Assembly (NCBI GenBank): GCA_036013505.1
Contig: CP107851.1
Span: 9,224,001-9,288,000 of the forward strand
DNA from: Streptomyces sp. NBC_00510
GTDB lineage: Bacteria; Actinomycetota; Actinomycetes; Streptomycetales; Streptomycetaceae
Direction of reading: 5' to 3'
Length of the DNA: 64,000 bases
Every line of letters begins with the position of its first letter. Within the stretch, counting starts at the first letter, position 1. Under the pieces are notes generated by a model that saw only the letters and a program-made list of their open reading frames with translations, ran no database searches and was not told where the DNA came from. Position numbers and translations under genes: made by a program. Positions 3,982 to 49,137 of the stretch are shown piece after piece.

Positions 3982-4032
3982 GGCGCGAGCCTAGAGCACC
4001 GCCCGGCGGCCGCGCCGCCCTCGGCCAAGACC

Positions 4033-5130: not shown

Positions 5131-5143
5131 GATCCTCCGGTCG

Positions 5144-5911: not shown

Positions 5912-5948
5912 CGTCCGTCCCGGTCATGGGCGTCCCCCTCGGTTCATT

Positions 5949-5968
5949 GGTATTTTGGTATGACGTTA
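5949..5968. promoter_or_regulatory. Shared FadR-type operator, site A
   Basis: GGTATTTTGGTATGACGTTA lies in the 111-bp gap between the divergent class II aldolase operon and the fadR-type regulator gene. The core TGGTATGACGT is a degenerate TGGTnnnACCA. It overlaps a TATTTT hexamer that could be the -10 of the regulator, consistent with autoregulation. It is the weakest of seven sites in the window sharing this pattern. Confidence 0.6.
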
Positions 5969-6022
5969 ATCCGTTAGTCGGGAAGCCGTCAACAAGGCCG
6001 TTCACCGTGGGAGAATGCGCTC

Positions 6023-6808: not shown

Positions 6809-6844
6809 CCGCCGCGCGGCCCGGACGGGCGGCACCGGCGGGGG

Positions 6845-6880
6845 AGCGCCCCGGACCTGAGGGAGGGTCCGGGGCGCTTT
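6845..6880 (+). terminator. Intrinsic terminator after the FadR-type regulator
   Basis: Perfect 13-bp stem AGCGCCCCGGACC (6845-6857) and GGTCCGGGGCGCT (6866-6878) with an 8-nt loop and a short T-run, 37 bases after the regulator stop. It separates the regulator from the bicupin gene, which has its own operator. Confidence 0.85.
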
Positions 6881-6938
6881 CGTGTGCCCGGGGGTGCTGG
6901 GCGGGATCCGCCGGGGCACTGGTCTGGCTTGGCTCACA

Positions 6939-6958
6939 GGTATTATGGTTAGGCCATT
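6939..6958. promoter_or_regulatory. Shared FadR-type operator, site B
   Basis: GGTATTATGGTTAGGCCATT, 27 bases upstream of the bicupin start at 6985. Core TGGTTAGGCCA matches TGGTnnnnCCA. TATTAT (6941-6946) inside the site is a plausible -10, so a bound repressor would block RNA polymerase. Confidence 0.75.
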
Positions 6959-6984
6959 GGAGCGCTGTCATCACAGGAGGATCC

Positions 6985-8007: not shown

Positions 8008-8029
8008 CGGCCGCCCACCACGCACGACG

Positions 8030-8072
8030 GCCCCGGCCCCGCACCGCGCACGAGGCGGTGCGGGGCCGGGGC
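8030..8072. terminator. Bidirectional terminator
   Basis: Perfect 18-bp stem (8030-8047 pairs with 8055-8072, 7-nt loop) of almost pure GC, between the convergent bicupin 1 and PHP-domain genes. Confidence 0.85.
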
Positions 8073-8098
8073 GGCCACGGGGCCGGAGCGCCCGAACG

Positions 8099-9718: not shown

Positions 9719-9847
9719 GGCGGCTCTCCCGAACGGGTGGTTTATGCACGGACTCCGGCACACTCCTCCGCCCGGGTGAACGCCGGGCAGAGCGCGGGGA
9801 ACCCCCGGCGACGCCGGCCTGAATCCCGGACCGCCCGGGACCCCGGC

Positions 9848-10756: not shown

Positions 10757-10772
10757 CGCGTGCGCTCCCCTC

Positions 10773-11840: not shown

Positions 11841-11921
11841 CGTGCCTCCCGACTGGAGTGGACGGACGAAGCGCCGACGTGCGCTTGCACGTACGCGCGG
11901 GGAAGGGAACAGGGGAGCGGG

Positions 11922-25544: not shown

Positions 25545-26402
25545 ATGCCCACCGCCGTCATCGACGGGATCCCCACGCGCTACGAGACGGCCGGCTCAGG
25601 GCCGCCGCTGCTGATGTTCTCGCCCGGCGGCTTCGACTCCAGCCTGGAGGGCTGGCGGACGGTCGGGGTGTACCGGAGGCTGCGGCTGCTCGACCGGCTC
25701 ACGGAGCGGTACACCTGCATCACCTTCGACCGGCGCGAGTCCGGGCGCTCCGGCGGCCGGGTCGAGCGCCTGTCCTGGGCGGCCTACGCCGCCCAGGGCC
25801 GCGGCCTCCTCGACCACCTCGGCATCGCGCGGGCCCACCTGATGGGCGGCTGCGTCGGCTGCTCGACCGCGGCCGCGCTCGCGGTGGCCCACCCGGAACG
25901 GGTGCTGGGCATGGTGCTGTACTCCCCGGCGGGCGGGGTGAGCTACCGGATGAAGCAGCACGCCCGCTTCGAGCGCCACCTCGCGTACGCCGCCGAGCAC
26001 GGGCTCGGCGGGGTCGTCGACCTCGCCAGGACCACCGGTGCCGGTTTCACCGCGGACCCACGCGTCGGACCGTGGGCCCATGTCATCCGCGGCGACGCGG
26101 AGTTCGCCGACGCCTACGCCCGCACCGACCCCGAGCGGTACCGGGTGACCGTCGCCGGGTCGGCCCGGCTGCTCTTCGACCGCGACACGGTCCCCGGCCC
26201 CGAGCCCGAGGACCTGCTCCTGCTCGACGTCCCGGCCCTGGTCGTCCCCGGCCAGGACGACTCCCACGCGCCCTCGGCGGCCCGCTACCTCCAGGAGTGC
26301 CTGACGCGCTCGGAGTTCTGGGACGTCCCGGTCGCGGAGCAGACGGCGGTGACCGCGGCGGACCGGGTGCTGGGGTTCCTGGGCGGCGCGGACGGCGGGT
26401 GA
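25545..26402 (+). CDS. Alpha/beta-fold hydrolase with cysteine at the nucleophile elbow
   Basis: A 285-residue alpha/beta hydrolase. The oxyanion region GPPLLMFSPGG and TFDRRESGRSG are typical, but the nucleophile elbow reads LMGGCVGCS, placing Cys103 where serine is usual, as in dienelactone hydrolase. The acid and histidine are probably in VVPGQDDSHAPSA. Such enzymes open lactones or cleave C-C bonds in meta-cleavage and lactone products. It is the last gene of the Rieske operon; a strong bidirectional terminator follows. Confidence 0.82.
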   Translation: MPTAVIDGIPTRYETAGSGPPLLMFSPGGFDSSLEGWRTVGVYRRLRLLDRLTERYTCITFDRRESGRSGGRVERLSWAAYAAQGRGLLDHLGIARAHLMGGCVGCSTAAALAVAHPERVLGMVLYSPAGGVSYRMKQHARFERHLAYAAEHGLGGVVDLARTTGAGFTADPRVGPWAHVIRGDAEFADAYARTDPERYRVTVAGSARLLFDRDTVPGPEPEDLLLLDVPALVVPGQDDSHAPSAARYLQECLTRSEFWDVPVAEQTAVTAADRVLGFLGGADGG

Positions 26403-26439
26403 CGGCCGTCGCGGCGTCATCGGCGTGGTGCCGGGCACC

Positions 26440-26481
26440 GGCCGGGCGGGCCCCCGTATCTCCGTGGGGGCCCGCCCGGCC
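26440..26481. terminator. Bidirectional terminator
   Basis: Perfect 16-bp stem (26440-26455 with 26466-26481, 10-nt loop), all G/C, between the convergent hydrolase and MFS genes. Confidence 0.85.
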
Positions 26482-26493
26482 CCTCGGCTGTGC

Positions 26494-27765
26494 TCAGCGG
26501 CGCAGGAGGCGGCGGCTGACGATCGCGCAGATCGCGATCAGCACGGCGGCGAAACCGAGGAGCGCCAGCCGCTGCGAGACGTACAGCGTGCCCACGCCGA
26601 GCCCGAGGACGGGCACCGCCAAGCCGATGTACGCGGCCAGGAACAGGCCCGCGAGGGCCTCGCCGCGGCGGCGCGGCTCCGCCAGGGAGACGACCGTGGA
26701 CACGGTGCCCTTGAAGAGCACGCCGGCACCGGCACCGGCGGTCATGCCGCCGGCCAGGAACAGGCCGAAGCTCGGCAGCCACACGGCGGCGGTCACCGCG
26801 GCCAGTCCGGTGACCATCGAGGTGAGGCCGGTCGCCAGCTGACGCCGGGCGCCGACCCGCAGCAGCAGCGCCTGCGCGCCGGCCGCGCAACCGAAGTCCA
26901 GGAACGGCACCAGACCGGCCAGCGCGCGCGACGGGTGGTGCAGCGTACCGGCGACGAACGAGGGCCCCACCGAGGTGAACAGGCCCAGCACCGCGAAGGC
27001 CGCCAGGGTCGCCCCGCAGGCGGCGAAGAACGCCGGGCGCGCCGCCGGGGGGACCGTGACGCGCTGCGGACGGTAGGCGGGTCGCTCCTCGGCCCGTTCC
27101 ACGGTCTCCGGTACGAGCGCCACACCCGCGGCGGCGAGCAGCAGCAGTCCGAGGAAGACCAGGTACGGGGTGCGCAGCGGCGCGCCCGCGTACTGGGCGA
27201 GCAGTCCGGACAGCAGCGGGCCCACCGCGAAGCCGCCCATGTTGGCGGTGGTGGAGATCAGGTCGGAGCGGCCCCGTCCCGCATGCGGCCGCGCGGTGGT
27301 GTGTAGCTCCGACAGGTGCGCGGTGGCCGTGGCGGTGATCATCCCGACGCCCAGCCCGGAGACGACGCGGGCGGCGATCACGACCCCGAGCGACGTGGAC
27401 GTCAGGAACATCACCGCCGAGAGGCCCTCGACGATCACGGCGGTCAGCAGGACGCGGCGCCGGCCGAGCCAGTCGGAGACGTGCCCGGCGAGGAAGAGGC
27501 TCACGACGACCCCGACCGCGTAGGCGGCGAAGGCGACCGTGACCATGAAGGTGGAGAAGCCCTCACGGGCCTGGTAGAGCGCCCACAGCGGGGCCGGGAC
27601 GGCGGTGAAGGCCATGGCCACGAGGAAGGCGAAGGCGATGACCCAGAAGCCGGAGCCGTGCCCGAGGGGGCGCCGGCGGTCGGAGCGGACGGGAGGGCGG
27701 GCGGTGACGCCGGCGCGGGGGGCGGGCCTGCCGGCGTGCCGAGCGGTGGCCGTCTGGGGGGACAC
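26494..27765 (-). CDS. MFS transporter
   Basis: A 423-residue major facilitator with about 12 hydrophobic helices; the helix 2-3 loop reads AGHVSDWLGRRRVLLTA, the usual MFS signature. The GTG at 27765 is preferred because AGGAG stands six bases upstream and the hydrophobic region begins soon after; a longer frame to 27834 has no such signal. It is divergent from a LysR regulator, with 113 bases between, and none of the regulon operators is there. Most likely a drug or metabolite exporter under LysR control. Confidence 0.87.
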   Translation of the reverse strand: MSPQTATARHAGRPAPRAGVTARPPVRSDRRRPLGHGSGFWVIAFAFLVAMAFTAVPAPLWALYQAREGFSTFMVTVAFAAYAVGVVVSLFLAGHVSDWLGRRRVLLTAVIVEGLSAVMFLTSTSLGVVIAARVVSGLGVGMITATATAHLSELHTTARPHAGRGRSDLISTTANMGGFAVGPLLSGLLAQYAGAPLRTPYLVFLGLLLLAAAGVALVPETVERAEERPAYRPQRVTVPPAARPAFFAACGATLAAFAVLGLFTSVGPSFVAGTLHHPSRALAGLVPFLDFGCAAGAQALLLRVGARRQLATGLTSMVTGLAAVTAAVWLPSFGLFLAGGMTAGAGAGVLFKGTVSTVVSLAEPRRRGEALAGLFLAAYIGLAVPVLGLGVGTLYVSQRLALLGFAAVLIAICAIVSRRLLRR

Positions 27766-27878
27766 AATCTTCTCCTGAGCAGACGAAATGATTGAACGCT
27801 CAAAGAGTGCGTCGGGCGGTACCATCGCGTCCAACGATGATTCGTGCTTGCATCGATCAATCTGATGGATGGTCAGTC

Positions 27879-28784
27879 ATGGAGCTCCGCCACCTCGAGT
27901 ACTTCCTCGCCGTCGCCGAGGAGCTGAACTTCACGCGCGCCGCCCGCCGGCTGCACGTGGTGCAGTCCGGGGTGTCAGCGGCCGTGCGGGCCCTGGAGCA
28001 CGAGCTGGGGGCGCCGCTGTTCGAGCGCACGTCCAAGCAGGTCGCCCTCACCGCCGCCGGGGAGGCCTTGCTCCCCGAGGCCCGGGCGACACTGGCCGCC
28101 GCGCAGGCGGCCCGGGACGCCGTCGGCCAGGTCGCCGGGGGGCTGCGCGGCACCGTACGGGTCGGCACGATGACCTCCATCGCCCTCATCGACCTGCCGG
28201 GGCTCTTCGGCCGCTTCCACGCCGACCATCCCCGGGTCGGCATCCGCCTCAGCGCGTCGATCGGCGGTACCGCGGGCCTCGTCCAGGGCCTCGTCGACGG
28301 TGAGCTGGACGTCGCGTTCGTCTCGCTGCCCGGCAGGCCGCCGGCCGGGCTGACCGTCCGGTCGCTGGCCACGGTGCCGCTCACGGCGGTCCTGCCCGCC
28401 GGCCATCCGGCTGGAGCCGGATCCTCGGTGGACCTCGCCGACCTGGTGGGGGAGCGCTTCATCGACTCGCCCGTGGGCTTCGGGAACCGCCTGGTCGTCG
28501 ATCGGGCGTTCGCCGCCGCAGGCCTGGAGCGCTTCGTGGTCATCGAGGTCACCGACATCACCATGACCGCCGACTACGTCCGGCAGGGCCTCGGCGTGGC
28601 CATCATGCCGTCCTTCGCGGTCGCCGCGGACGACCCGGGCGTGTGCGTGCGCCCCGTCGCGGACGGGCCCCTCGAGTGGTCGCTGGGGGTCGCCTACTCC
28701 TCGGTGCGCCGGCCCGGCGCCGCGCTCATGGCGCTGCTGGCGCTCATCGGCCGGTTCGTACGCGTCCCGCCCGGAGCCCCGTGA
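27879..28784 (+). CDS. LysR-family transcriptional regulator
   Basis: A 301-residue LysR protein starting directly with the HTH (MELRHLEYFLAVAEELNFTR, then RRLHVVQSGVSAAVRALEHE) and continuing into a standard effector domain. The intergenic region with the divergent MFS gene contains the inverted repeat TTGAACGCTCAA (27792-27803), a fair LysR-type site. Its 3' end overlaps the convergent membrane-protein gene by 41 bases. Confidence 0.9.
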   Translation: MELRHLEYFLAVAEELNFTRAARRLHVVQSGVSAAVRALEHELGAPLFERTSKQVALTAAGEALLPEARATLAAAQAARDAVGQVAGGLRGTVRVGTMTSIALIDLPGLFGRFHADHPRVGIRLSASIGGTAGLVQGLVDGELDVAFVSLPGRPPAGLTVRSLATVPLTAVLPAGHPAGAGSSVDLADLVGERFIDSPVGFGNRLVVDRAFAAAGLERFVVIEVTDITMTADYVRQGLGVAIMPSFAVAADDPGVCVRPVADGPLEWSLGVAYSSVRRPGAALMALLALIGRFVRVPPGAP

Positions 28785-29250
28785 GGACGGCCGTGGTGAC
28801 CAGGGCGTACGCCACGTGCGGCACGAGGTCGGAGATCCAGTCCGACCGCGACCAGGTGCGCGGATCGGTCACGCGCAGCACGGTCATGGGGCCGTTGGTG
28901 CCGATCAGCGCTCCCACGGTCGCCGTCGCCGTCAGCACGGCCGTGGCCGGGCGCCAGCCGCAGCCCACGGCCAGCCCGAGCGTCGCGCCCATGCCCGCCC
29001 CGGCCGCGATGCCCGTGAGGGCGCCCAGCGAGGAGATGCGGTTGCGGCGGGCGCCGTCGTCGCCGGGGATCGGTACGTGCGTGGACTCGGAGAGCCGCTC
29101 GACGGTGGTCGCCGGGGCGGAGCTGGCGGCGCGGCCGCGCAGCAGCATGTCCAGGTAGCCCACGGTGTTGAGCGCCGTCGTGCCCGCCGCGCCCGCGGCC
29201 GCCCCGCACAGCACCCCGTGCACGGGTCCGAAACCGTTGCGGGCCGTCAC
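28744..29250 (-). CDS. Small membrane protein of unknown function
   Basis: A 168-residue protein with hydrophobic segments near residues 10-30 (VLCGAAAGAAGTTALNTVGY), 70-90 (ALTGIAAGAGMGATLGLAVG), 95-110 and 145-165, so three to four membrane spans are likely. Between them lies a soluble loop with THVPIPGDDGARRNRISSL. I do not recognise a family. A GTG at 29250 was chosen because the hydrophobic region starts there; the sequence further upstream is basic, low-complexity and unlike a coding N-terminus. Convergent and overlapping with the LysR gene at its 3' end. Confidence 0.65.
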   Translation of the reverse strand: MTARNGFGPVHGVLCGAAAGAAGTTALNTVGYLDMLLRGRAASSAPATTVERLSESTHVPIPGDDGARRNRISSLGALTGIAAGAGMGATLGLAVGCGWRPATAVLTATATVGALIGTNGPMTVLRVTDPRTWSRSDWISDLVPHVAYALVTTAVLTGLRAGRVRTGR

Positions 29251-29592
29251 GGGATCACCGCGCCACGGTCGGGCGCGCCGTCGCGCCGGGTGGAGGGAGT
29301 GCCGGTCGTCGCGTGCATACCTTCCAGTAACGCGCCGGACCCCGCACCGCGCCACCGGAGCGGGGGGTGCGGACGGTGCGGCAGCGGGTGAACGGCGGGA
29401 TGCACTCATCGGCCCTCCGCCGAACACTGCCCGCGAGGGTTGTAGCCACCATTCTTCCCGCGCGGGCAATCAGTGGATACCGCCGAATGACATCCCGATG
29501 AGGGCTATGATGCCTGGACCTGACCATGTTCTGGCATTCGCCAACGGATACCGGTGTACGGGCCCTTGAATTCACGTCAGTTCCTGGTCAGC
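29251..29592. promoter_or_regulatory. Intergenic region and probable promoter of the trypco2 operon
   Basis: About 340 bases, more AT-rich towards the right. TATGAT at 29506-29511 is a good -10 candidate in front of the trypco2 gene; I see no convincing -35. No regulon operator occurs here. Confidence 0.4.
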
Positions 29593-29934
29593 ATGGACGG
29601 GGCGCAACAGCATGGGGGATCGGTGGACGACGCGGTTGAGTTGGCGGATGTGATCTGGAAGCTGCGGTCGGAGCTCACTCGGGCAGCTTGGGGCGGAGAG
29701 CACAAGGACCTCAGGTTCAAGGCCGAGAAGGTGGAACTCGAACTGACGGTCGGGGTGGAGAAGGTTCGCGACCCCAATGTGAAGGTCAAGTTCTGGGTAT
29801 TCGACGCCGGAGTCGGCTCGCAGCGGAAGAACGTGTCCACACAGACCATGCGGTTGACCCTGCTACCCGTCTTCGCGGCGACACCGGACGATCCGGCCCT
29901 CATCGGCGGTGCGGCGGTCGACGACGAGAAATAG
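29593..29934 (+). CDS. Trypco2-domain protein (trypsin co-occurring)
   Basis: A protein of about 113 residues matching the trypsin-co-occurring domain 2 pattern: a first helix VELADVIWKLRSELTRAAW, then beta strands LRFKAEKVELELTVGVEK, VKVKFWVFDAG, and the closing STQTMRLTLLPVF. The family is known from comparative genomics as a small partner of trypsin-like peptidases in putative bacterial conflict systems; its biochemical role is not established. It lies 21 bases upstream of a trypsin-like peptidase gene, the diagnostic context. Start uncertain: ATG 29593 has a weak ribosome site, while GTG 29620, just before the domain, has GGGGGA; GTG 29554 is also possible. Confidence 0.8.
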   Translation: MDGAQQHGGSVDDAVELADVIWKLRSELTRAAWGGEHKDLRFKAEKVELELTVGVEKVRDPNVKVKFWVFDAGVGSQRKNVSTQTMRLTLLPVFAATPDDPALIGGAAVDDEK

Positions 29935-29955
29935 TCCGTGGCTCGGCGGTGACCG

Positions 29956-32073
29956 GTGAGTACGTTTCACGTCGGCCAGGTCGCGGAGATCATCGTCCTG
30001 CTTTCCGACGGGGAAAGACGCGGGTCGGGTTACCAGATCTCACGCTCACGTGTGTTGACGGCGGCGCATGTCGTCGCGGACGCGGAAATGGTCGCGGTTC
30101 GCTTTGACGCAGATCAGCCCGAACAGTGGAAGTCGCTCAGCACCGTCGAGTGGTTGGACAACACGCGCGATCTCGCCTTGCTGACTCTCGACCATGAACG
30201 TCCAACCGTCGCCGTCCCGGCGGGTTTCGCTCGTCTGGGGGCCGGTCACGAGGAGATCGAGGTGCACACCGCGGGCTTCCCGAAGTGGAAGCTGCGCAAG
30301 GACGGGGACAACAAGAGATTCCGTGACCTGCACCAGGCGTTCGGCCGTGTCGCGCCGTTGTCGAACCGACGCAGCGGGACGCTCGAGATCACGCTGAGCG
30401 GGGCTCCGGCTCGGTCCTCGGACGGTTCGCCCTGGGAGGCGATGTCCGGAGCCGCGGTGTGGGCTGCGGACCGCATCATCGGGATCGTCACCGAGCACGA
30501 CTTCAAAGAGGGTCTGGCCCGGTTGACCGGAGCACGCCTCGACCTTGCCCTGAAAGACGCGCAGGACGCCGATGGCCGACGTCTGAGCGACATGCTGGGC
30601 ATCGATCCCGCAGCCCTGCCCGACGCGACCGTCCCACGGGCGCAGCCGCGGCCGGCACCCTCTCCCGCCCTGCCCGGGCTGCGTGCCTACCGGCTGCCGG
30701 TGGACTGGATCCCCGGTGGCGGTCCGTGCCCGGTGAACGATGCCCACCTCGCCGACCTCGGCGCGCTGTTGTGTCTGGAACGAGGTCCGGCCACCAATGT
30801 GGTGGCGGCTCGGCCGGGTACCGCGCTCGCGGCGGCGCTGTCGGCGGTCGAGGAAGGGCCGGTCCGGCGTGGCAGCGGTCCCGCCAGGGACTTTCCGGAA
30901 CGCTCGTGGCGCGTGGTGGACGCCGAGACCGCGCTGCGCGACCTGCCCGCCACTTCGGCGGTGACCGGCTTCGTGGTGCCATGGCCCGTCGGCGTCCACC
31001 TACGAGGGCCGACGGGTGCCAGGTCGGTCCGGGAGGTCCGGGCCCAGATACGTGCGGCTGCCCCTGACGCGTCCGTCGTCGTGCTGGTGGAGGCGGAGCA
31101 GGCCGTCGATGCGATCGCTACCGCCACGCACATCGGCCGTGACCTCCGCGCCGGGCGGACCGGCGAGCGGGTGGAGGTTCTGACCTTGATACGTCCTGGT
31201 GAGCCCCCTGACGAGTCGTCCGGCACGGCTGCGCACGGAACAGCGGAGCCCGACGGGCACCGGTTGATGGCGACCGTCGCCGCGGAGATGCAGATGCGTA
31301 CCTTGGCCGCACCTCCCTGCCCGTACGACGGTGAACCGTTGCCACCGCAGACGGATCCGATGGCGGTGGCCAGTGCGGTCGTGGAGATGCTGAACCGCAG
31401 CGCGGCCTGGGGGCCGCCGGAGCGTGAGGCCCATGCGCTGGGTCTCGTCCGCGACTTCGCTCCGCGCTACTTTCCCGCTCTCCTCCGCCGGCACGCGGCG
31501 CACCGATCCGGTCGCACACGGTGGGCCTCGCTCTCCGCGGTGGCCGGGATCGACGACCACGTCACGATCTGGCTGGAAGCCGTGCCCGAGGTGGACCCGC
31601 CGTCGCGGGTGCCGCGCCTGTTCCGGGACCGCCGGATCGTCGAGTCCGTTCTGCTCGGACTGCTGCGCACGGGAGCCGGCGATGTCGGCGCATGGCGAGA
31701 GGCGGCTGCCAACGGACGCTGCCAGTCAGTCCAGGAACTGGCCGACTACCTGGCGTCGGACCGCCCGGCGGCCGAGTTCCTTTCCCACGCCTCGGCCGGG
31801 ACCGTCGTCGCGGCCCTCAGGGCGGAGCAGTACCACCTGCTCAACGGGGGAACCGCTGTGCCCCAGGCGTCACAGGCCTGGTGGGCGGTGCTGGGACGCA
31901 GGCCCCTGACGGAGTCCGCCGTGAGGACTCTTGCCGCCCTGAGCGTGGAGTCGCGCCGTGTGGCCGGGTTCACCGTCGACCGGAGCGAGACGGACCCGGA
32001 CCTCGCCGAATTGACGCACCAGATGCGGATGGCGATGTGGCCTCCGCTGCCAGGAAAGGAAGCGATGGGATGA
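29956..32073 (+). CDS. Trypsin-like serine peptidase with large C-terminal region
   Basis: A 705-residue protein. Residues ~1-200 are a trypsin/HtrA-type peptidase with the full triad: H38 (VLTAAHVV), D72 (NTRDLALL) and S164 (WEAMSGAAVW). There is no signal peptide, so it acts in the cytoplasm. Residues ~230-450 are alpha/beta-like (VTGFVVPWPVGVHL, then VVVLVEAEQAVDAI), and the last ~240 residues are helical and rich in Arg/Trp. Neither of these C-terminal parts is recognised. The stop codon overlaps the start of the giant gene (ATGA), so the two are translationally coupled. In known trypco/VMAP-type systems such peptidases are thought to be activated on sensing an invader and to cleave a partner; here the partner is presumably the giant protein. 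Confidence 0.82.
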   Translation: MSTFHVGQVAEIIVLLSDGERRGSGYQISRSRVLTAAHVVADAEMVAVRFDADQPEQWKSLSTVEWLDNTRDLALLTLDHERPTVAVPAGFARLGAGHEEIEVHTAGFPKWKLRKDGDNKRFRDLHQAFGRVAPLSNRRSGTLEITLSGAPARSSDGSPWEAMSGAAVWAADRIIGIVTEHDFKEGLARLTGARLDLALKDAQDADGRRLSDMLGIDPAALPDATVPRAQPRPAPSPALPGLRAYRLPVDWIPGGGPCPVNDAHLADLGALLCLERGPATNVVAARPGTALAAALSAVEEGPVRRGSGPARDFPERSWRVVDAETALRDLPATSAVTGFVVPWPVGVHLRGPTGARSVREVRAQIRAAAPDASVVVLVEAEQAVDAIATATHIGRDLRAGRTGERVEVLTLIRPGEPPDESSGTAAHGTAEPDGHRLMATVAAEMQMRTLAAPPCPYDGEPLPPQTDPMAVASAVVEMLNRSAAWGPPEREAHALGLVRDFAPRYFPALLRRHAAHRSGRTRWASLSAVAGIDDHVTIWLEAVPEVDPPSRVPRLFRDRRIVESVLLGLLRTGAGDVGAWREAAANGRCQSVQELADYLASDRPAAEFLSHASAGTVVAALRAEQYHLLNGGTAVPQASQAWWAVLGRRPLTESAVRTLAALSVESRRVAGFTVDRSETDPDLAELTHQMRMAMWPPLPGKEAMG

Positions 32074-35000
32074 GCCTGCTCGCGGACTGGTACTTCTGTA
32101 CGGCGATGCGTCTGTCGCCGGCCGACACCCACGCATTCCTCGACACGCTGGGTGTCCTTCGCCGCACCGACGCGGAGCGGGCCGACCTCTTGGACGCGGC
32201 GGAGGCGCTCAAGTCGTCACCCTCCTGGCTGCAGCTCTACGCGTTGCGTCCGCTGCTGACCGCTCACGGGCGGTTGGCCGACCGCACGGCGGCAACCGCC
32301 GACGGAGCTCCGGGCCCCGAGGGGGCCGAGGTCGCTGCGGAGCGGAGGGAACGGGCCGCCGAACGCGTCGAGGAGGGCAGGACCCAGTCGGGGTACGGCG
32401 ACGCCGAGCTGGGACGGCGCATCGGCGAGCTGTGCGAGGCAGTGCTCGCCACGACGGATCATCCGTTGGCCGCCCACCTGGGCACGGTTCTAGGGGCGGT
32501 GATCCAGGATGCCGACGGAGCGCGCCGCGTACTGCTGAAGGACATCACGAAGCCCCTCGCCGAGGAGCCAAGGGGGGCACTGGGTCCCGATCCCAGCCCG
32601 CCTTACCACGATCTGAACGACCACATCGTGCCCACCGTCACGGTGATCGCGCTCGCCGAACTGACCCGCCGTCGCCCCACGTCGGCGGCACAGGACTGGC
32701 TCGGGGAGAACGCGGACCCGGTCGCCGCGGCCGCGCTGCGGGGTGAGTACGGCCGTTTGGCGCTGCTGACAGCGGTCGAGGCCTCGGGCCGAGCCGACCC
32801 TCAGGCACGCGACGAGGTCTGGCGCAACCTGTGGCTCGACGGCAGGGGCGCTCCGCACCTGCAGCCGGACCTGCTGGACGCGCTCTCCCGCCTCTGGTTC
32901 GGTCATCCCGACACAGAGGACCCGCCGTCGGTGGCCGAACTGGAAACGGAGGCGGTCACCGGAGACGATCTGGCACTGTGGGCCCGCGCCAGGCGTCATG
33001 ACACGTCGGCGTGCGCCGAGTTCTACGCCCTGCTGACCGGGCACACCAATGGAGCCTGGGACGCGATGGGAGCGGTGCTGTGGCAGTCGGTGCTGTGGTC
33101 GCTCGCCGCCGAGGTGGACCCGGCGGGGGCCGCGGCACGTCTGGCACGCTGGTGGCGGACGCCGCGACGGACACCGGGAGAGACGGTGACGGTGCACGTC
33201 GGCAGGATGACGACCCGTGCGACGGAACACCTCTCACTGCTCCACCAACTGAGCCGGGCGCCGGGCAGCCGTGTCGTGGTCGACGAGGCGCCGGTCGATG
33301 AGACCGGCGAACGGGCCGGCTCGACCGTCTGCTCGCCGTGGGTCGACCGGTGGCACGACGGCTGGGACCACATGCGCAGGAACGGACCTGCGTTCCGCTT
33401 CGGGTCTTCGGGGCCCTCGGAACCCCTCGTGCGCCTGCTCGCGGCCGCATCCCTGTCGGTGTCCCTGCTTGCCGCACTGCCCGAGGCCAGGGAGGAGCAG
33501 GAGCACGATCACCTGACCGCCCTGGTGCTCCACACCGTCGACGTTCTCCGTGACCAGGCGACGCTGCTCACCGACCTGGAGCTCGGCGAGTACACCGGCG
33601 ACCACCCGCTCGGTCCGGCGCTCGCCTCCCTTGTCTGGCATGTGTACCGGGTTCTCCAGGAGACCGGGGCCGGCCACGATCCCCGGGTCGATCCCCGACG
33701 ATTCGCCGCCTTCGCGGCCCGTGTGCTGGAGGACGACGCGTCGGCCGACCTCGAGGACAACGAACAGTCCGCACGACTGGCGCGCCAAGCAGTCGGCGCC
33801 ATCTGCACGATGTGGATCCGCCGCGCCTGGGTGGAGTCCAGCGCCATCCGCCCGGAAGAGGGGCCCGGGCGCTGGTTCCTGGGCGACCCGCCCCTGGCGC
33901 TGCGCGTGCTGATGGCGGGGCTGGACCGGCTCAGTCTGCTTTTGACGCAGTTTCGTGCCCTCAAGCAGCAGGAGTCGCGGCGTCGCGGGAAGCTCGAGAA
34001 GGAGCGAGCACGGCAACAGCCGGGCACTGCCGCGGAGCCGGTGCGGACCCGTTCGGTGTCGCTGACCCGAGGGTTGTGGACGCCGGACCTGATGCCGACG
34101 GCGCAATTGCTGAAGGAGATATACCCGGCCGACTGGCCGGACCCGGTGGGCAGTCGGTGGCCGCAGCTGGACCTGGACTGGTACGGCCAGCGGGATGGAC
34201 TGCGGAAGTTGTACGAGCCGCGCCTGCGACGGGCCGGAGACGATCCCGAGGCGGTCACCGTCAACACTGTGCGTGCCGAGCGGTTGCTGCTGTCGCCCCG
34301 GTATCCCCTTCAGGTGTGGCGTGAGTCCACCCCCGACCTCGAGGGCTGGGCACGCGTCGACAGCGCGCCGATCACGATGCGCGCGCTGCGGTTGGTGGCA
34401 CTCCTGCAGGATCACCAGGCCGTGGCCTCGGACGGGTACCGCGAATGGATCGAGGACTGGCTCGACCGCATCCACGCCGTGCAGCGCCGTGAGGAACTGT
34501 CGCTCGACGTACGGGCCATCATGATCCGATTGCTCGCACCTGCCGTACCGGGCGGCGGTGTGGACTACGAGAGACTCCTGTCCTCGGTGCACGGGGCGAC
34601 GGTCGATGCAATCATGGAATTCGGCTCGTCCACGCCCCGTCACATCGAGATGCTGCTGGAGCAGCTCGCCGGCTCCGTCGGCCTGGCGCGGGAGGCCACC
34701 GACCGCCTGCGTCTGCGTGCCCTGGAAACGATCTACCGCCAGAGACAGTACCGGGGGCAGCAGCTGACGTTGTGGGGCGTCTCGGAAGTCCGCCGGGAGA
34801 GAGATGCGGCCGTCAACCGGGAGCTGGCCATACGCCGGTATCTGGACGGCATCGCGGCATCGGCGCATCAGGAGTCGGAGCGCGTGCCCGTGCTGGAGCG
34901 CGCGCACGCGTTGTGGGCCCGCACACAGCTGCGACCGCTTCTGAGCGGAACACGCGTGCCGCTGACGGACCGGCGCCACCGACGGGGCGAGGGTGTACCG

Positions 35001-38000
35001 GAACTGATCGTGGCCGCAACGGCCACGGACCGCTTCCGAGCGGAGGAGATCTCCTATCTGCTCGACGTGGTGAGTCCGGCGACGGTGCGGAGCCCGAGGC
35101 GCACCGGCCGGGTTCACGACCTGTTCCCCAGCGAGCGGTACCGGCAGCAGATGCTGCAGGAGATCACGAAGTCGGTGCGCACGGTCTTCGCCGTCGTAAC
35201 GGAGGTCGAGGACGCCCGTGTCTGGCTGAACGCCGGGCTCGGCACCCCGTTGCCGTACGACGGGGCTCCTGAAGGTCTCGGAGTGCGGACCGGTGACGTC
35301 GTGGCCGCGGAGATCCGCGGGGGGCCGGCCGCCGTGGTCTCCGTCCGGCGCTTGCCGTGGCCCGAGCCCGAGCCCGGTGAAGTGCGCACGGCCACGGTAC
35401 GGATGACACGTCCGTGGCTACGGGTCGAGGTGGACGGTGTCAGCGGTGCGGTGTATCCGAACGGTGACGGTGCGGTGGCCGACTCGGTTCGCCGACGCTG
35501 GGATCCCGATCTGTCACGGGCGTTCAGCGGGCAGGGTGGGGGGCCGGTGACCGTTCCCGTCCGGTGGGACGGTGAACTCCGGCACTGGGTGCCGGTCGAG
35601 CGCTCGCTCAGCGAACTGATCGTCAAGGAACTCGACTCTCCCGAAGGAGCACGGCTGGTCCACGCGGGTGGCGATCTGTTCGTCACCCGGCCGGGCTTCC
35701 TCTACCGCCTCACCGACGCCGACTGGGAGGACCCCGAGGCCGTCGCCGCACTGCTCGACGGGCAGCCGGGAGGGGTCATCCTGCAAGTGGACCGGGCTGC
35801 CACCGGGGGGCCGCGTCTGCGGGTCACCGCCGACGACAGCCGGAACGTACGGTGGCTACGCCTGTTCAGCGGCAACGAGCACGAATTCACCATCGCCACC
35901 AAGAGCGACCGCGGATACAGAATCGAGGTCGATCCTCCCGAAGGCTTTCCCCCCGCGGTCGTGGCACGCGGAGCGGAGGGCGGCCCGCAGCGCGCCTACG
36001 TGATCACCGCCCCGTGGAGCGAGCGGCAGGCTCGCTTGGCCGAGGTCACGGTCACGCTGGTACCCGTCAGCGGGGTGAAGGACCGGCACTTCCCGACGGT
36101 GGAGCGGTTCGAGGAGGTGTGCGGTGTGGCCGTCGGCGCCCGGGTGACGCTCCGGCGGATCTTCTCGCACAGTCTCGAGAACGCGCTGGTGTGGGCGACC
36201 ACGTCGACCGGGGTCGCCGTGCGGCTGGAGACCGACTCGCTGACCTTGCTGAATCCAGAAGAGGTGGGGAGGTCGGCCGGCGGCATGGTCAGCGGCCGGG
36301 CCGCCGACGTGGTCCGGGTGTACAAGTTGCCGGTGCCGCGGCCACCGGGCTCGGCCATGACGGTCGAGGAGCTCGCCACGCGCGTCCACACGGACGGCGC
36401 GGACACGGCGGAGGTCCGCCGGCAGGTCTCGTCGGCCGACGTGGCGGAAGGTGTGGTCGTCGCGCGCGCCTCCGCGCCGGGACAGGGCGGGGACACGATC
36501 TACGGCACGTGGTGCCGCTTCGGCGACCAGGTCCATTACGTCGAGCTCCCCCAGGAGCACCTGGGCGCGACGATCGCCCAGTTGGTGGGCCAGACGTTCG
36601 TCGGCACGCGTGACGGTGCGCAGTGGACTTTCCGGTTCTCTCCGAGGGAGATCACCGTACGCGCCCTGTTCGAGGTGCGGACCGGAGCGGATGTCGACGG
36701 ACCCGAGGTCTTCGTCGGTTCCGACGGTACCGCCGATCTTTACCAGCACCCGACACGACCCGTGCTGGTGCGCCGCCCCGCGGCCGGCGGAGACGCCATC
36801 CGCCGGCTGGACCTGGCCACCGCTGACGTCACACTGCTCGACCGCCGGCCCATCACGATGCGCACCGTGGCGGTGCGCACCCGCAAGGACTCGGTGGTGC
36901 TGTTCGGCGGCTCGTCGTTCCGTGAGGACGTCGGCGACGCCCAGGTCGTGGGCGTCCGGCTGGATCTCACCCCGTCGCGCTCCGGCCGGGGGGACCGCGT
37001 CCGCGCGCGCCGCACCTTCTCCCTCCGTGCACGCTCGGCTTCGGCCCCCCGCCGCGTACAGCAGGTCGACCACGCCGGGCGATGGCAGCGATTCCTCGCG
37101 GCGGGGCACGATCACGTGACGGGGAGTCTTGCCAAGACGCACGTCGACATCACGGGCGGCCTCAGGCCCCCGGGGCCCGACGGCAAGCTCTCCGCCCGGC
37201 TTCCCCTGCTGCCGGGTGAGGAGCCCGCGGTCGCCGGGGTGCCCTACCGCACCCTGGGCGTCCGGGTGAGGCTCGTGCCGCACGGGGACGGATACGCCGC
37301 GTCGTATGCCACGGCCACCCCGAAGACTCTGCCCGAGTTCATGCGCCTGATGCATCAGGAGGTCACCGCAGGCGACGTGAGCCGGCCCTTTGCCGATGCC
37401 CTCTACTACGTGTCCCCTCCTACGGCCCAGTTGGACGCCCACGTCTTCGAGTGGGGATACGGGTGGACCGTCGCTGTGCCGGCGGGCAGACTGAGCGTCG
37501 CGGGCACCCCGGACCGGCGCGGACTGCCGCCGCTGTTCCACGGTGACCGCATCGAGGCCGCGAGCTTCGTGGCGGCCGACGACGGCGGTGACCCCGTCAT
37601 GGTCATCGCCTGGCGTGACATCCGCCCCAGGTACGTCACGCAGATCGTCGACGAGCGGCGCCAGCAGTATCTGCACCTGCTCGACGTCGAGGTCGGCGTG
37701 GCCACGGGGACCTTGCGGGTGATGAGGGCGCAGGCGGGGCGGCGTCGCGGCGACGACCCGTTCCGCAGCGCGGAATGGGTCCCGTTCCCCGCGACCCTCG
37801 ACGACGACAGTCGGAAACTGGTGCTCGAGCAGTTGCGGCAGAGCGGCGAGACGGGTCTGGTGCGGCGCCGGATCCTGGCCAGGTTCGACAACGAGACGGC
37901 GATCTCCACCGGTGGCCGGGAACGGATGTTCCAGGCCGTCCGAGCGGACGGAGCCGGACTCAGGGACAAGGACCGCGTCTTTCTGACGGCCCGACAGATC

Positions 38001-41000
38001 GAGCAGACCAGCAACGAGCTCACCGTGATCTTCGGCATTCCTGACGCCCTCAACACCGAAGACCTCTCCGTCCGCGTGAACCGGCGGGAGTTCTCCTTCC
38101 GCGAGAGCACCCTCGCCAGACTGCTCGCCCGGGGGCTGGACGTGGAGAAGGCGGAGGTCGTGATGCTCGTCCGGCTCACCGCCCCCAACCGGAAGGGCGT
38201 GCGTCACGGCTCGATCAAGGACGGCCCGGCGCGGCGGCCCGAGACCCTCGTCAGCTATCTCGCGAGTCGTGGTGGCTCCTGCTACGCGGTGTTCGGCAGG
38301 GTCGCCACCCGTGGTGCGGGACGTCTGGAGATCGCGCCGGGTGTCCTCTACGGTACGGCCGGTGTGGTCGGCGCGGAGGAAGCCCGACACGGCTCGGTGG
38401 TCCGCCTCGTACTCGACGACGCACGACGGGTGGTCCTGACGACCGCGCTGCCCGCCGACCAGTCCTACGTCGGAGCGAAGGGCCGCGCCGCGGTTGTCTT
38501 CCCCAAGTCGGACCTGTTGCGGCGGAACTCACCGGAGCGCCGTCGCGACATGGGGTCCGGGTTCGTGGTGTCCGGCCTGCCCGATGTGCAGGCGTCGCCG
38601 GTGAACGGTGCCGGAGCCGAGGTCCTTGCCGCTCCCCATCCCAAGATCTGCTGGTTGAGGGAATCGCGCGACGGCTCGGTTGAGCTCCGACTGGCTTCCC
38701 CGAACGAGGCGCGTGTCGCCCGCCTGGTGCGGCGCGACGCCGACCGGCCCGCGGAGGTGCGGCCTCGCGTGTTGCCCGGGGAGCCGCGGGGGGAGCGCGA
38801 CACCCTCCCCATGCCGTGGGCCCGGATGTCATTCACCTACACCACGGCCGGCAGCATCGCCAGAGCGTGCGCCGCGCTCCGGTGGCAGCACCATGACCGG
38901 TACACAGGGCACGCCCGCGGGGATCGGATCGTCGGACCGTATGAAGTCAGCCCCGGCAGCCTCCTGTTCGACGGCGTCGCCTTCGATGACGACGCCGGCT
39001 GGACGCTGCGGTACGGGCCGGACCGACTCGCCGCCTTCGGCTTTCCCGCCGGCGAACTGCTGGACGGACCCGCACGCGAGCGCCCCCTGACCGTGGCCGG
39101 CGTGTCCGCCGACGGCGGGGGCGTCTGGGTGGAACTCGGGCCGGGGCGCTTGGTGGAGATCCGCGGTGCGCTCGTCACAGCGGAAGGCCGTACCGCCCTC
39201 ACCGGGCTGGACTGGCCGGCCTTCGCCCCCGGGGACCAGATCGGTCTGTCCCAGGACGACTCTTCACAGGACGCCCACGGCTGGGAGGCGAGTCAGGAGT
39301 CCTTGGTGCTCACGTCCTGGCGGACCACGGTGACCGGAGCGCTGCCCCGTGACGACCGTGACGCCCGGGTCCTGCTGCCGGTGCGAGGTACCGACCGTGG
39401 AGGCGGGGCGCTCCACCTTGCGGACGGGCAGGGGAGACTGGTCTACCCGCTCGACAGGACCGCACTGACCGCGCTGCAGGGTGTCGAGGCAGTATGGCTC
39501 GACGCCCGCAACGACGTGGAGCCGTACACGGCCGGATCGGTCCGGCCAGGTGACACCGTGCTGCTCATGGCGGACGAGCACGGCCGGCTGACCGTGGCCG
39601 GACTGCCCGATGTGGAGGTGCGGGTCGCGCCCCGGGGGGACCGCAACTGGCCGGGGTACGACTGGCTGCACCGGCGACTCGCGCATGATTCCGGCCGACG
39701 GAACCTGCTCGAGGCCTTCGACGGGCAACTCCCCGTCACCGTGCACAGTGTCGGCATCGACCGGCCCGTGGTGACCGTCTCGCGGGAACGGCAGCCGTCG
39801 GGCTTCTGGCCGCGTGCCCGGCAGGTGCGAACGGAACTGCTCGCCGCGTCGGGTCGGCAACTGCTGCTCCGGTCCGGCGCGGCGGTGTACTCGGTCTCCC
39901 TCGACGAGGCGGTCCTCGGCGTTCCCACGACGCTCGCCGGGCAGGTGGCCGCGGCCTTGGACGGAGCGACGCGCAGCCGCCCCCTCGTGCTCTGGTGGCG
40001 GGTGGACGAGCAAGGTGTGCGGCAGTCGGGACTGGCCGAGTCGGCCGGCGACGCGGGACCCCAGGACGTGGTCGTCGTGCTGGAGGCCGAGGTGGCGATC
40101 GACGGGGCAGCCGTCGGCGTGGTGTGCCGGGACGTGGCCACCTCCAGGCTCCACTGGCTGGGGGCCGACCAGGCCTCGTGGGTACGGGACGTCGCGGCCG
40201 GGGACCTGCTGGCCAACCTGGCACGCGCCAACCGGTTGACGGCGCGGCTCCGCCCCGACGGCAGCCTGTCCGTCAACACCCGCCCGGCCGTCTCCCACCA
40301 GCTCAGGCGCTTGCAGCTGGGCCAGTCCCTCCGGCTCGTGCTGGGCGAGGGACGTCCACGGCCTGCCGGGGACGGCACGTGGCGGTACATCGCCAGACTC
40401 GAGATGCCTCCGATCCTGATGTCCTATGTGTCCACCGACCCGGAATTGACGCCGGGGACCTCCCGTCTGACCGAAGTCGACACCGTCGACCGAGGGGGCC
40501 AGCCGTCGGTGACGACGGTGGACGCGAACAGCCGGCGAGTCACCCTCGATCTCCCTCGTTGGCTGACGGTGGCGCACCAGGCGATCGTCGAGGACGGCAG
40601 CCCCGGTGCCGCCCTCGGCCGGTTCGACGAGTACCGCCGCTGGTACCGGGAGGGTAGGGGCGGAGTCACCGGCGACGCGCCGACCGAGGCGGTGGTACGC
40701 CTTGCCGGGGACCTGGTCGACGGAGCCGAGGTGGACGTGCGGCAGCTCCGCGAGGTGACCACTCGTTGGATGGCCGCCCACGGCCGGGCCGTCTTCAACC
40801 TGATCGGTGACGAGGAGATGGATGCCGCCCCCCTGCTCGCCGGGGCGCTCGTGATGGACGCGCTCGCCGGCCGGGACCGGGACTGGGATCCGGTGGTCGT
40901 GCTGTATCTGCACCAGATCGGCCGACGTGCGGCGGCCAGCCTGCACACCGAGCAGCTTGCCACAGCGTGGGTGGGGGAGCCCGAGGTGCATCATCTCGGC

Positions 41001-41447
41001 GGTGCGTGGGTCCGGCTGCGCGCGCTCTCCCTGGCTCGTGAGCTTGAGCCCCGGCAGGTACGGCAGTTGCGTGAATTCTGCAGGGCGATGCTCACCAAAC
41101 CGGTGCTGCGCAACGTCGAGAACGCTCTGGCACCCGTCGCCCGTTCGTTGCTCGCCGCCGTCGGCGAACTCGAATCGGCTGAGGAGCTCCTGCGGGACGC
41201 GACTGTTCTGGCCGGGCCGGCGACGTGGGCCAGGACCTTGCTGCCTCCGTCCGGTCACGCGACCGCTCAGCCGACGCTGCTCGGGCGGCAGCGCGAACAG
41301 CTTCGGGCGCTGGCCGATCACGTGGTCAATGACGCCGTTCCGCTCACCCTGCTTCCGGTGGTGGCACCACCGTTCGGGTCCGAGGGCGACCTGGCACGGC
41401 GGGTGCTGCGCAACCTTCACAGCACCTCGGGTCCGTCCCCCGACTGA
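32070..41447 (+). CDS. Giant (3,125-residue) protein of the trypco2-peptidase operon
   Basis: A 3,125-residue protein I cannot assign. Residues ~1-1010 are almost all helical, with Trp/Arg-rich helices and a charged stretch near 640 (RRRGKLEKERARQQ). Residues ~1030-2860 are beta-rich and repetitive: short barrels recur with a G-D-x-V/I-x-L turn (VRTGDVVAAEI, FHGDRIEAASF, FAPGDQIGLSQ, VRPGDTVLLMAD, AAGDLLANL), reminiscent of tandem SH3- or OB-like folds. Residues ~2865-3125 are helical again. No signal peptide, membrane segment, Walker motif or nuclease motif was found by eye. ATG at 32070 overlaps the peptidase stop. Two regulon operons flank it at a distance but none of their operators controls it. 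Scaffold, sensor or peptidase substrate are all possible. Confidence 0.85.
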   Translation: MSLLADWYFCTAMRLSPADTHAFLDTLGVLRRTDAERADLLDAAEALKSSPSWLQLYALRPLLTAHGRLADRTAATADGAPGPEGAEVAAERRERAAERVEEGRTQSGYGDAELGRRIGELCEAVLATTDHPLAAHLGTVLGAVIQDADGARRVLLKDITKPLAEEPRGALGPDPSPPYHDLNDHIVPTVTVIALAELTRRRPTSAAQDWLGENADPVAAAALRGEYGRLALLTAVEASGRADPQARDEVWRNLWLDGRGAPHLQPDLLDALSRLWFGHPDTEDPPSVAELETEAVTGDDLALWARARRHDTSACAEFYALLTGHTNGAWDAMGAVLWQSVLWSLAAEVDPAGAAARLARWWRTPRRTPGETVTVHVGRMTTRATEHLSLLHQLSRAPGSRVVVDEAPVDETGERAGSTVCSPWVDRWHDGWDHMRRNGPAFRFGSSGPSEPLVRLLAAASLSVSLLAALPEAREEQEHDHLTALVLHTVDVLRDQATLLTDLELGEYTGDHPLGPALASLVWHVYRVLQETGAGHDPRVDPRRFAAFAARVLEDDASADLEDNEQSARLARQAVGAICTMWIRRAWVESSAIRPEEGPGRWFLGDPPLALRVLMAGLDRLSLLLTQFRALKQQESRRRGKLEKERARQQPGTAAEPVRTRSVSLTRGLWTPDLMPTAQLLKEIYPADWPDPVGSRWPQLDLDWYGQRDGLRKLYEPRLRRAGDDPEAVTVNTVRAERLLLSPRYPLQVWRESTPDLEGWARVDSAPITMRALRLVALLQDHQAVASDGYREWIEDWLDRIHAVQRREELSLDVRAIMIRLLAPAVPGGGVDYERLLSSVHGATVDAIMEFGSSTPRHIEMLLEQLAGSVGLAREATDRLRLRALETIYRQRQYRGQQLTLWGVSEVRRERDAAVNRELAIRRYLDGIAASAHQESERVPVLERAHALWARTQLRPLLSGTRVPLTDRRHRRGEGVPELIVAATATDRFRAEEISYLLDVVSPATVRSPRRTGRVHDLFPSERYRQQMLQEITKSVRTVFAVVTEVEDARVWLNAGLGTPLPYDGAPEGLGVRTGDVVAAEIRGGPAAVVSVRRLPWPEPEPGEVRTATVRMTRPWLRVEVDGVSGAVYPNGDGAVADSVRRRWDPDLSRAFSGQGGGPVTVPVRWDGELRHWVPVERSLSELIVKELDSPEGARLVHAGGDLFVTRPGFLYRLTDADWEDPEAVAALLDGQPGGVILQVDRAATGGPRLRVTADDSRNVRWLRLFSGNEHEFTIATKSDRGYRIEVDPPEGFPPAVVARGAEGGPQRAYVITAPWSERQARLAEVTVTLVPVSGVKDRHFPTVERFEEVCGVAVGARVTLRRIFSHSLENALVWATTSTGVAVRLETDSLTLLNPEEVGRSAGGMVSGRAADVVRVYKLPVPRPPGSAMTVEELATRVHTDGADTAEVRRQVSSADVAEGVVVARASAPGQGGDTIYGTWCRFGDQVHYVELPQEHLGATIAQLVGQTFVGTRDGAQWTFRFSPREITVRALFEVRTGADVDGPEVFVGSDGTADLYQHPTRPVLVRRPAAGGDAIRRLDLATADVTLLDRRPITMRTVAVRTRKDSVVLFGGSSFREDVGDAQVVGVRLDLTPSRSGRGDRVRARRTFSLRARSASAPRRVQQVDHAGRWQRFLAAGHDHVTGSLAKTHVDITGGLRPPGPDGKLSARLPLLPGEEPAVAGVPYRTLGVRVRLVPHGDGYAASYATATPKTLPEFMRLMHQEVTAGDVSRPFADALYYVSPPTAQLDAHVFEWGYGWTVAVPAGRLSVAGTPDRRGLPPLFHGDRIEAASFVAADDGGDPVMVIAWRDIRPRYVTQIVDERRQQYLHLLDVEVGVATGTLRVMRAQAGRRRGDDPFRSAEWVPFPATLDDDSRKLVLEQLRQSGETGLVRRRILARFDNETAISTGGRERMFQAVRADGAGLRDKDRVFLTARQIEQTSNELTVIFGIPDALNTEDLSVRVNRREFSFRESTLARLLARGLDVEKAEVVMLVRLTAPNRKGVRHGSIKDGPARRPETLVSYLASRGGSCYAVFGRVATRGAGRLEIAPGVLYGTAGVVGAEEARHGSVVRLVLDDARRVVLTTALPADQSYVGAKGRAAVVFPKSDLLRRNSPERRRDMGSGFVVSGLPDVQASPVNGAGAEVLAAPHPKICWLRESRDGSVELRLASPNEARVARLVRRDADRPAEVRPRVLPGEPRGERDTLPMPWARMSFTYTTAGSIARACAALRWQHHDRYTGHARGDRIVGPYEVSPGSLLFDGVAFDDDAGWTLRYGPDRLAAFGFPAGELLDGPARERPLTVAGVSADGGGVWVELGPGRLVEIRGALVTAEGRTALTGLDWPAFAPGDQIGLSQDDSSQDAHGWEASQESLVLTSWRTTVTGALPRDDRDARVLLPVRGTDRGGGALHLADGQGRLVYPLDRTALTALQGVEAVWLDARNDVEPYTAGSVRPGDTVLLMADEHGRLTVAGLPDVEVRVAPRGDRNWPGYDWLHRRLAHDSGRRNLLEAFDGQLPVTVHSVGIDRPVVTVSRERQPSGFWPRARQVRTELLAASGRQLLLRSGAAVYSVSLDEAVLGVPTTLAGQVAAALDGATRSRPLVLWWRVDEQGVRQSGLAESAGDAGPQDVVVVLEAEVAIDGAAVGVVCRDVATSRLHWLGADQASWVRDVAAGDLLANLARANRLTARLRPDGSLSVNTRPAVSHQLRRLQLGQSLRLVLGEGRPRPAGDGTWRYIARLEMPPILMSYVSTDPELTPGTSRLTEVDTVDRGGQPSVTTVDANSRRVTLDLPRWLTVAHQAIVEDGSPGAALGRFDEYRRWYREGRGGVTGDAPTEAVVRLAGDLVDGAEVDVRQLREVTTRWMAAHGRAVFNLIGDEEMDAAPLLAGALVMDALAGRDRDWDPVVVLYLHQIGRRAAASLHTEQLATAWVGEPEVHHLGGAWVRLRALSLARELEPRQVRQLREFCRAMLTKPVLRNVENALAPVARSLLAAVGELESAEELLRDATVLAGPATWARTLLPPSGHATAQPTLLGRQREQLRALADHVVNDAVPLTLLPVVAPPFGSEGDLARRVLRNLHSTSGPSPD

Positions 41448-41487
41448 CCGTGTGCGGCGCCGCAGCTGTCCGGGGGTCTGCGAACGG

Positions 41488-41961
41488 TCAGGCCCCCGGG
41501 GATCCCGGCACCGTGGGGGAGGGGCGCCGCTCCAGGGCGGCGATCTGCTCGACGCGGCGCTGGTGCACCCCGCCCTTGAACGGGGTCTCCAGCCAGGCCG
41601 CCACGATCTCCTCGGCCAGGTCGGCGGTGAGCACCATCGCCGCCAGCACGAGCACGTTGGAGTCGTTGTTCCCCCGCGAGATGCGGGTGCTCCACACGTC
41701 GTGGCACAGGCCCGCCCGGATGCCGGGGACCTTGTTGCAGGCGACGGTCTCGCCCAGGCCGCTGCCGCCCAGGACGATGCCGCGGTCGGCGGCGCCGGCG
41801 ACGACCCGGTCGCAGACGTCCGCGCACAGCGGCGGGTAGTCGACGGTCTCGGCGCTGTGGCTGCCGCGGTCGTCGACGGTGTGGCCGCGGGCGGTGAGCC
41901 AGGCGGTCAGCCGGGCCTTGAGGGCGACCCCGTTGTGGTCCCCGGCGATGGCGATGCGCAC
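41488..41961 (-). CDS. RpiB/LacAB-family isomerase
   Basis: A 157-residue protein of the ribose-5-phosphate isomerase B / LacAB family: IAIAGDHNGVALK at the N-terminus and LGGSGLGETVACNKVPG at the active site, where the base is Glu as in actinobacterial RpiB rather than the E. coli Cys. It interconverts aldose and ketose forms through an enediol. It follows a 4,5-dihydroxyphthalate-decarboxylase-like gene with a 23-base gap and shares operator F, so it may isomerise a pathway intermediate rather than ribose phosphate; inference only. Confidence 0.85.
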   Translation of the reverse strand: MRIAIAGDHNGVALKARLTAWLTARGHTVDDRGSHSAETVDYPPLCADVCDRVVAGAADRGIVLGGSGLGETVACNKVPGIRAGLCHDVWSTRISRGNNDSNVLVLAAMVLTADLAEEIVAAWLETPFKGGVHQRRVEQIAALERRPSPTVPGSPGA

Positions 41962-48990: not shown

Positions 48991-49089
48991 GTTGGCCCCA
49001 CTCTTCCCTACTTGGTCTCGCTGTCCACTACCGCGCGGCCGCCCGGCGGCCGCGATGCCTCCACGTAGAGGAGACGGGCCGCGCGCGCC

Positions 49090-49137
49090 CGGACAACACA
49101 AATCCCGCAGGGTCCGTCAGCGGATTTGTGTTGTCCG
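49090..49137. repeat. Perfect 16-bp inverted repeat between sigma factor and thaumatin genes
   Basis: CGGACAACACAAATCC (49090-49105) and GGATTTGTGTTGTCCG (49122-49137), separated by 16 bases. Much more AT-rich than its surroundings. It lies 65 bases before the thaumatin start and 100 bases from the sigma-gene start, with no gene ending nearby, so a regulatory palindrome or structured leader is more likely than a terminator. Confidence 0.75.

Follow-up and report, generated by a model that had tools for sequence, protein, structure and literature searches.

What kind of system is encoded by the three adjacent plus-strand genes at 29593-41447 of the 64,000-nucleotide stretch of DNA analysed here (hereafter the window), which belongs to the single-contig, 10.15-Mb genome of Streptomyces sp. 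NBC_00510? The genes encode a Trypco2 protein, a 705-aa trypsin-like peptidase and a protein of 3,125 aa (hereafter the giant), and an earlier note had described them as an uncharacterised three-gene system that interrupts a catabolic cluster as an acquired island would. On re-reading, the open reading frames match the coordinates and strand proposed there, and the peptidase and giant genes are indeed coupled by an ATGA overlap, the former ending at 32073 and the ATG of the latter lying at 32070. Our results suggest that the locus is a rare acquired island in which the giant controls an interchangeable protease, an undescribed and probably self-defence system. The features discussed below are these:

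26403..41487, no strand: 15-kb segment that is inserted here as compared with six genomes of the same genus; besides the three-gene system it holds genes for an MFS transporter and a LysR regulator
29593..29934, plus strand: Trypco2 adaptor, 113 aa from the ATG at 29593 (PF19631, E 4e-23)
29956..30627, plus strand: trypsin-like protease module of the peptidase, aa 1-224 (PF13365, E 3e-9), with catalytic H38, D72 and S164
30661..32073, plus strand: partner C-terminal module, aa 236-705, homologous to every giant-linked partner, whatever its protease
32070..41447, plus strand: giant (3,125 aa), of no recognised family and with homologues at eight more loci
32070..35069, plus strand: helical N-terminal region of the giant, about aa 1-1000, by a composition rich in helix formers
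35070..40694, plus strand: beta-rich region of the giant, about aa 1001-2875, putative S1/OB-like array, by composition and by Foldseek on aa 1690-2880
39357..40469, plus strand: part of the beta-rich region that is modelled best, aa 2430-2800 of the giant (block means of pLDDT mostly 60-87)
40695..41447, plus strand: helical C-terminal tail of the giant, about aa 2876-3125, by composition, with conserved blocks such as SLHTE and LLAAVG

The first two proteins belong to the families that had been proposed for them: Trypco2 scores 81.8 bits against PF19631 (gathering cut-off 24.2), and the peptidase 38 bits against Trypsin_2, PF13365 (cut-off 27.6). The H38/D72/S164 triad of the trypsin is intact and is invariant among five Trypco2-linked trypsins. 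A trypsin-NACHT (STAND) system on plasmid pADI95-16a of Streptomyces sp. ADI95-16 (WP_008740872 and WP_123083038) resembles the window in that its Trypco2 gene immediately precedes the gene of an intracellular trypsin, whose triad is also the same. The shared modules are 58% identical for Trypco2 (to WP_008740872, a trypco2 family protein, aligned from residue 11) and 48% identical for the trypsin (aa 8-249 of the peptidase, to the plasmid's trypsin-NACHT-TPR protein). In trypsin-NACHT systems a NACHT/AAA NTPase, often with TPRs, follows the trypsin within one fused protein, whereas the trypsin of the window leads into the giant-linked module, with the giant itself following. Similar trypsins with very different sensor regions behind them also occur in two-gene Trypco2 plus trypsin-NACHT(-TPR) systems on Streptomyces and Rhodococcus plasmids (L015-L018). 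Membership of the peptidase in Avs1 was rejected: the NCBIfam model for Avs1b (AVAST type 1 protease) gives 21.5 bits against a cut-off of 1500, and over the trypsin region only. As for the start of Trypco2, homologues begin about 10 aa later than the ATG at 29593, and the GTG at 29623 has the better ribosome-binding site (GGGGGA); judging from the sequence, the GTG is the more likely start and would give a protein of 103 aa.

The giant is a single open frame. Since eight other loci have homologues of about 3.1 kaa, seven of them intact and one split, it is not a chance reading frame, and a sequencing or frame artefact was likewise rejected, the seven intact homologues having the same length. 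Including the window, we found nine distinct giant loci, in Kitasatospora/Streptomyces, on linear plasmids and in a Mycolicibacterium MAG; those outside the window are:

L005/L012: G016, Streptomyces sp. SPB162
L008/L011: G135, S. aureus NRRL B-2808
L009: Mycolicibacterium MAG
L010: S. flavochromogenes
L013/L014: linear plasmids of Streptomyces sp. Alt3 and NBC_01201
L024, L025 and L070: G281, G292 and G986, respectively

All giants are about 3.1 kaa long and align end to end with 26-94% identity; the Mycolicibacterium giant is closest to that of the window, at 44%. The earlier note recognised no family for the protein, and neither did our searches: Pfam, NCBIfam and PADLOC give no match, seven family members scanned by profile match no family (the Pfam S1 family, PF00575, included), and searches of PDB sequences with the giant and with profiles returned nothing of note. 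The family is also absent from the libraries searched and from the part of the literature that was accessible.

Peptidase and giant had been taken to work together, and no giant was found without a protease: in all nine distinct loci the gene that immediately precedes the giant, on the same strand, encodes a protease-bearing partner. The protease is not the same one throughout. The N-terminus of the partner is a CHAT domain (caspase-like; PF12770 significant, or by homology in L070) in eight of the nine loci, with His/Cys dyads present in the CHAT domains, and trypsin plus Trypco2 occur in the window only. Trypco2 is absent from all other giant loci, and a three-gene core was rejected on that ground. 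The conserved core is two genes, partner and giant, and Trypco2 and trypsin form a swappable module; "uncharacterised" therefore stands in the earlier description and "three-gene" does not.

Since aa 8-249 of the window peptidase are trypsin-NACHT-like and aa 242-702 are CHAT-partner-like (36.5% identity with the CHAT-bearing Mycolicibacterium partner), we read the protein as a chimera with its break near residue 245. The closest giant, from Mycolicibacterium, has a CHAT partner; therefore the protease changed and the core stayed, in a swap that rests on one trypsin example and so counts as a single event. CHAT is the likelier ancestral protease state, because L025, the most divergent locus, also has CHAT. 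A constant core that carries unrelated proteases across strains amounts to a natural domain-swap experiment, which marks the protease as the output module and the core as the part that senses and switches, and which defines an exchange boundary near residue 245.

Directly upstream of the L025 partner, on the minus strand (L025:13478-14266), is a DUF6338 gene (PF19865) with apparent hydrophobic segments. A second CHAT gene, divergent from the CHAT partner, is present in five lineages (L005, L008, L010, L013/14-L024 and L070), at L008:17064-19193, L005:15480-17660, L024:14034-16466, L013:3758-5908 and L070:3153-5429; the L010 copy is cut by the end of the locus and was detected by tblastn. Within the flanks read, none was found in the window, L009 or L025. 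The protein is about 710-760 aa long with an unrecognised N-terminal portion of ~500 aa, and it is possibly the downstream protease of a cascade.

What stays constant in the partner is its C-terminal ~460 aa, homologous in all giant-linked partners (alignments A6/A8). The pairwise identities of the giants and of the partner C-termini rise and fall together (r = 0.99, Spearman 0.86, over 28 pairs, which are not independent), and a profile of the partner C-terminus was positive in six of 395 genomes, in all six of which the giant adjoins the partner. An AlphaFold model of the module (A8; mean pLDDT 72.9) shows an alpha/beta domain and, behind it, an all-helical one. Foldseek against PDB gave nothing significant for this model, the top entries being mostly AAA+ ATPases (E at best 0.018, TM about 0.2), and hhalign against NACHT regions gave a probability of 0.2%, hence no sequence support. 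A degenerate NTPase-like domain is a possible reading of the model. On that reading the partner would resemble the iSTAND ternary systems of Kaur et al. (2020), where an N-terminal protease likewise precedes a possibly degenerate NTPase-like module; it differs from them in having no Pfam match in this module and no MoxR or vWA, and the hhalign value lends no support to homology. Profile searches of the window proteins and of family members gave no NTPase family match, and neither partners nor giants have a Walker A motif, for which reasons a STAND/NLR protease system was rejected.

The giant had been described as a helical region, a beta-rich region of repeating small barrels and a helical tail. 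This order agrees with the amino acid composition; repetition was not recovered at the sequence level, profile self-comparison of the beta region giving a best hhalign probability of 30%. The AlphaFold model of aa 1690-2880 (A9) is of low confidence as a whole (mean pLDDT 51.8, pTM 0.38), and the stretch at aa ~2430-2800 is modelled as beta-rich, with several successive small beta units and block means mostly of 60-87. For this low-confidence model, and with low TM-scores, the top PDB entry listed by Foldseek was a bacterial ribosomal protein S1 (E 4e-8, prob 1.00), with mostly further S1 entries at ranks 2-5; in BFVD, S1 proteins were the first two (E 3e-6 and 2e-5), again with low TM-scores. 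A six-repeat E. coli S1 profile scored on average 11.2 in the beta region, 8.8 in column-shuffled copies and 7.6 in the helical region, and the best hhalign match to an S1 profile lies near aa 1033-1084 (probability 9.5%). We consider it moderately likely that the beta region is an S1/OB-like array. The likeness to ribosomal protein S1 would be one of fold; the giant is far larger, has helical regions fused to the array and lacks PF00575.

The genomic context identifies the locus as an arrival. In six congeners the orthologues of a hydrolase (25545-26402 in the window) and of RpiB (41488-41961) are direct neighbours in a collinear catabolic cluster, and in the window the same two genes are 15 kb apart; this empty site bears out the proposal of an acquired island interrupting the cluster. 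The genes around the system encode the MFS transporter, the LysR regulator, RpiB, a dehydrogenase, an RraA-like protein and an amidohydrolase. The MFS and LysR genes (26494-28784) lie inside the insertion, and since their GC3 (0.93 and 0.91) is host-like, against 0.81-0.86 for the system, they may have been inserted in a separate event. The ends of the 15-kb island carry no direct or inverted repeats.

Carriage is rare. The genus of the window, which counts 35 species and includes the genome deposited as Streptomyces sp. SPB162, is probably Kitasatospora-like. Giants were found in two of 35 genomes of the window's genus and in five of 298 in a sample of the family Streptomycetaceae (about 1.7%), and the window's own genome was the sole carrier in the class and phylum samples (297 and 396 genomes), these being samples and not a census; a scan of contigs with two narrow peptide patterns yielded at least four loci. 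Such frequencies do not agree with a conserved core-genome unit with a housekeeping role, which the earlier note had named as the competing possibility. Viral contigs and phages yielded no relatives of the giant. L013 and L014 are on separate linear plasmids of Streptomyces, 279 and 428 kb in size; their giants differ by one residue and adjoin transposases, and their downstream regions differ, which suggests recent exchange. Chromosomes or large contigs carry most of the copies, and there is no mobility gene within the unit.

Starting from the architecture, co-divergence, protease swap, intact catalytic residues, empty site and plasmid carriage observed here, we lean somewhat towards a mobile, protease-armed conflict system, in which a giant scaffold or sensor with S1-like OB domains would gate an interchangeable protease and whose role would probably be immunity or regulated cell death. 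We infer a complex, a ligand, a direction of signalling and an immune function as follows. The constant core would be the partner, with its ~460-aa C-terminal module, and the ~3,100-aa giant as scaffold and sensor, the helical N-terminus of the giant docking on the partner module. The ligand of the S1-like OB array would come from the invader, with RNA or single-stranded DNA as the most plausible candidates; once bound, it would change the shape of the giant-partner complex or cause it to cluster, thereby switching on the protease fused to the partner. The activated protease would cleave cell proteins or an effector and so stop infection at the cell's expense, by growth arrest or death. Trypco2 would serve as the cognate adaptor or regulator of the window trypsin, and the second, divergent CHAT enzyme, where present, would act downstream. 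Two points count against a conflict role: no locus lies within a demonstrated defence island, and most systems of this kind carry an NTPase switch, whereas the giant system has no recognisable one.

Several described systems share parts of this design. In VMAP conflict proteins, trypsin and caspase are alternative N-terminal enzymes and Trypco1/2 accompanies trypsin, and the VMAP ternary systems (vWA-MoxR-VMAP; Kaur et al. 2020) are enriched in multicellular actinobacteria (PMC7159879). The giant loci resemble these in being multi-gene units with a constant C-terminal module behind a trypsin or caspase-superfamily N-terminus, and differ in having the giant as third component and in lacking VMAP-C, vWA and MoxR: VMAP-C (PF20028) has no match in seven partner C-termini at E up to 5, and no vWA or MoxR genes are among the neighbours scanned in the window or at the other loci. 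VMAP membership was rejected for these absences. LypABC, a CARD-NLR trypsin immune system, likewise places a trypsin-like peptidase in a multi-protein immune unit and requires peptidase activity for lysis and killing (PMC13236601); it differs in being NTPase-driven and CARD-assembled and in having no giant, and its peptidase-dependent killing is a precedent for the output of the window system and not evidence for it. The systems listed in PADLOC were rejected for want of a match, and the accessible part of the literature holds nothing further, beyond these two papers, on the giant or on CHAT/trypsin defence systems.

It is conceivable, though unlikely, that the giant system is an NTPase-free innate immune complex in which a giant tandem S1/OB protein recognises foreign RNA or ssDNA and allosterically activates whichever trypsin or caspase-like protease is plugged in, that is, a Craspase-like arrangement without CRISPR. 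Craspase consists of Cas7-11/gRAMP with TPR-CHAT. Both would pair a very large nucleic-acid-binding protein with a CHAT protease, nucleic-acid binding by the giant being our proposal; here, however, no CRISPR array or Cas7-like sequence was found, CHAT sits on a different module, and no profile search detected homology between the giant and Craspase proteins. If the core does gate proteases without an NTPase, its activation logic would be simpler than the one used by NLR-like and VMAP systems and would tie S1-like nucleic-acid-binding arrays to protease signalling.

The giant might also be the restraint or the substrate of the protease and not a sensor, so that cutting or losing it would free the protease, in an addiction or guard arrangement. 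The ATGA overlap and the co-divergence speak for tight stoichiometric coupling, and plasmid carriage would fit an addiction or guard module. However, conservation extends along the entire beta array, which suggests many constrained contacts, and a restraint of 3,100 aa would be far larger than any antitoxin known to us. At L005 an intact CHAT partner stands beside a giant homologue (3162-12620, minus strand) that is broken into three reading frames, a combination predicted to be harmful under addiction unless the breaks are assembly errors; the split, as read, could be either mutation and decay or such an error. We regard a restraint as distinctly unlikely.

A regulated-proteolysis machine for a host stress or development function, unrelated to invaders, seems to us just as improbable as a restraint. 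The proteins of the system have no clear membrane segments and read as cytosolic, nothing phage-related lies nearby, and translation and RNA metabolism commonly employ S1-like domains, all of which would suit such a function. What speaks against it is that only two of the 35 congeners, and some 1-2% of the family, carry the system, together with the empty site, the plasmids and the protease exchange, since rarity, empty site, plasmids and module exchange are traits of conflict systems and not of housekeeping. More doubtful still is a weapon or exclusion module that belongs to the plasmid or island and is directed at rival elements or at host functions, instead of protecting the host against phage. 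The near-identical giants beside transposases on two linear plasmids might suggest such a module, but most copies are chromosomal or on large contigs and the unit holds no mobility gene.

Elsewhere in the window, on the minus strand at 47104-49101, one open reading frame encodes a sigma factor-hydrolase fusion, with sigma-70 region 2 (PF04542) and the catalytic core of a glycosyl hydrolase (PF11790).
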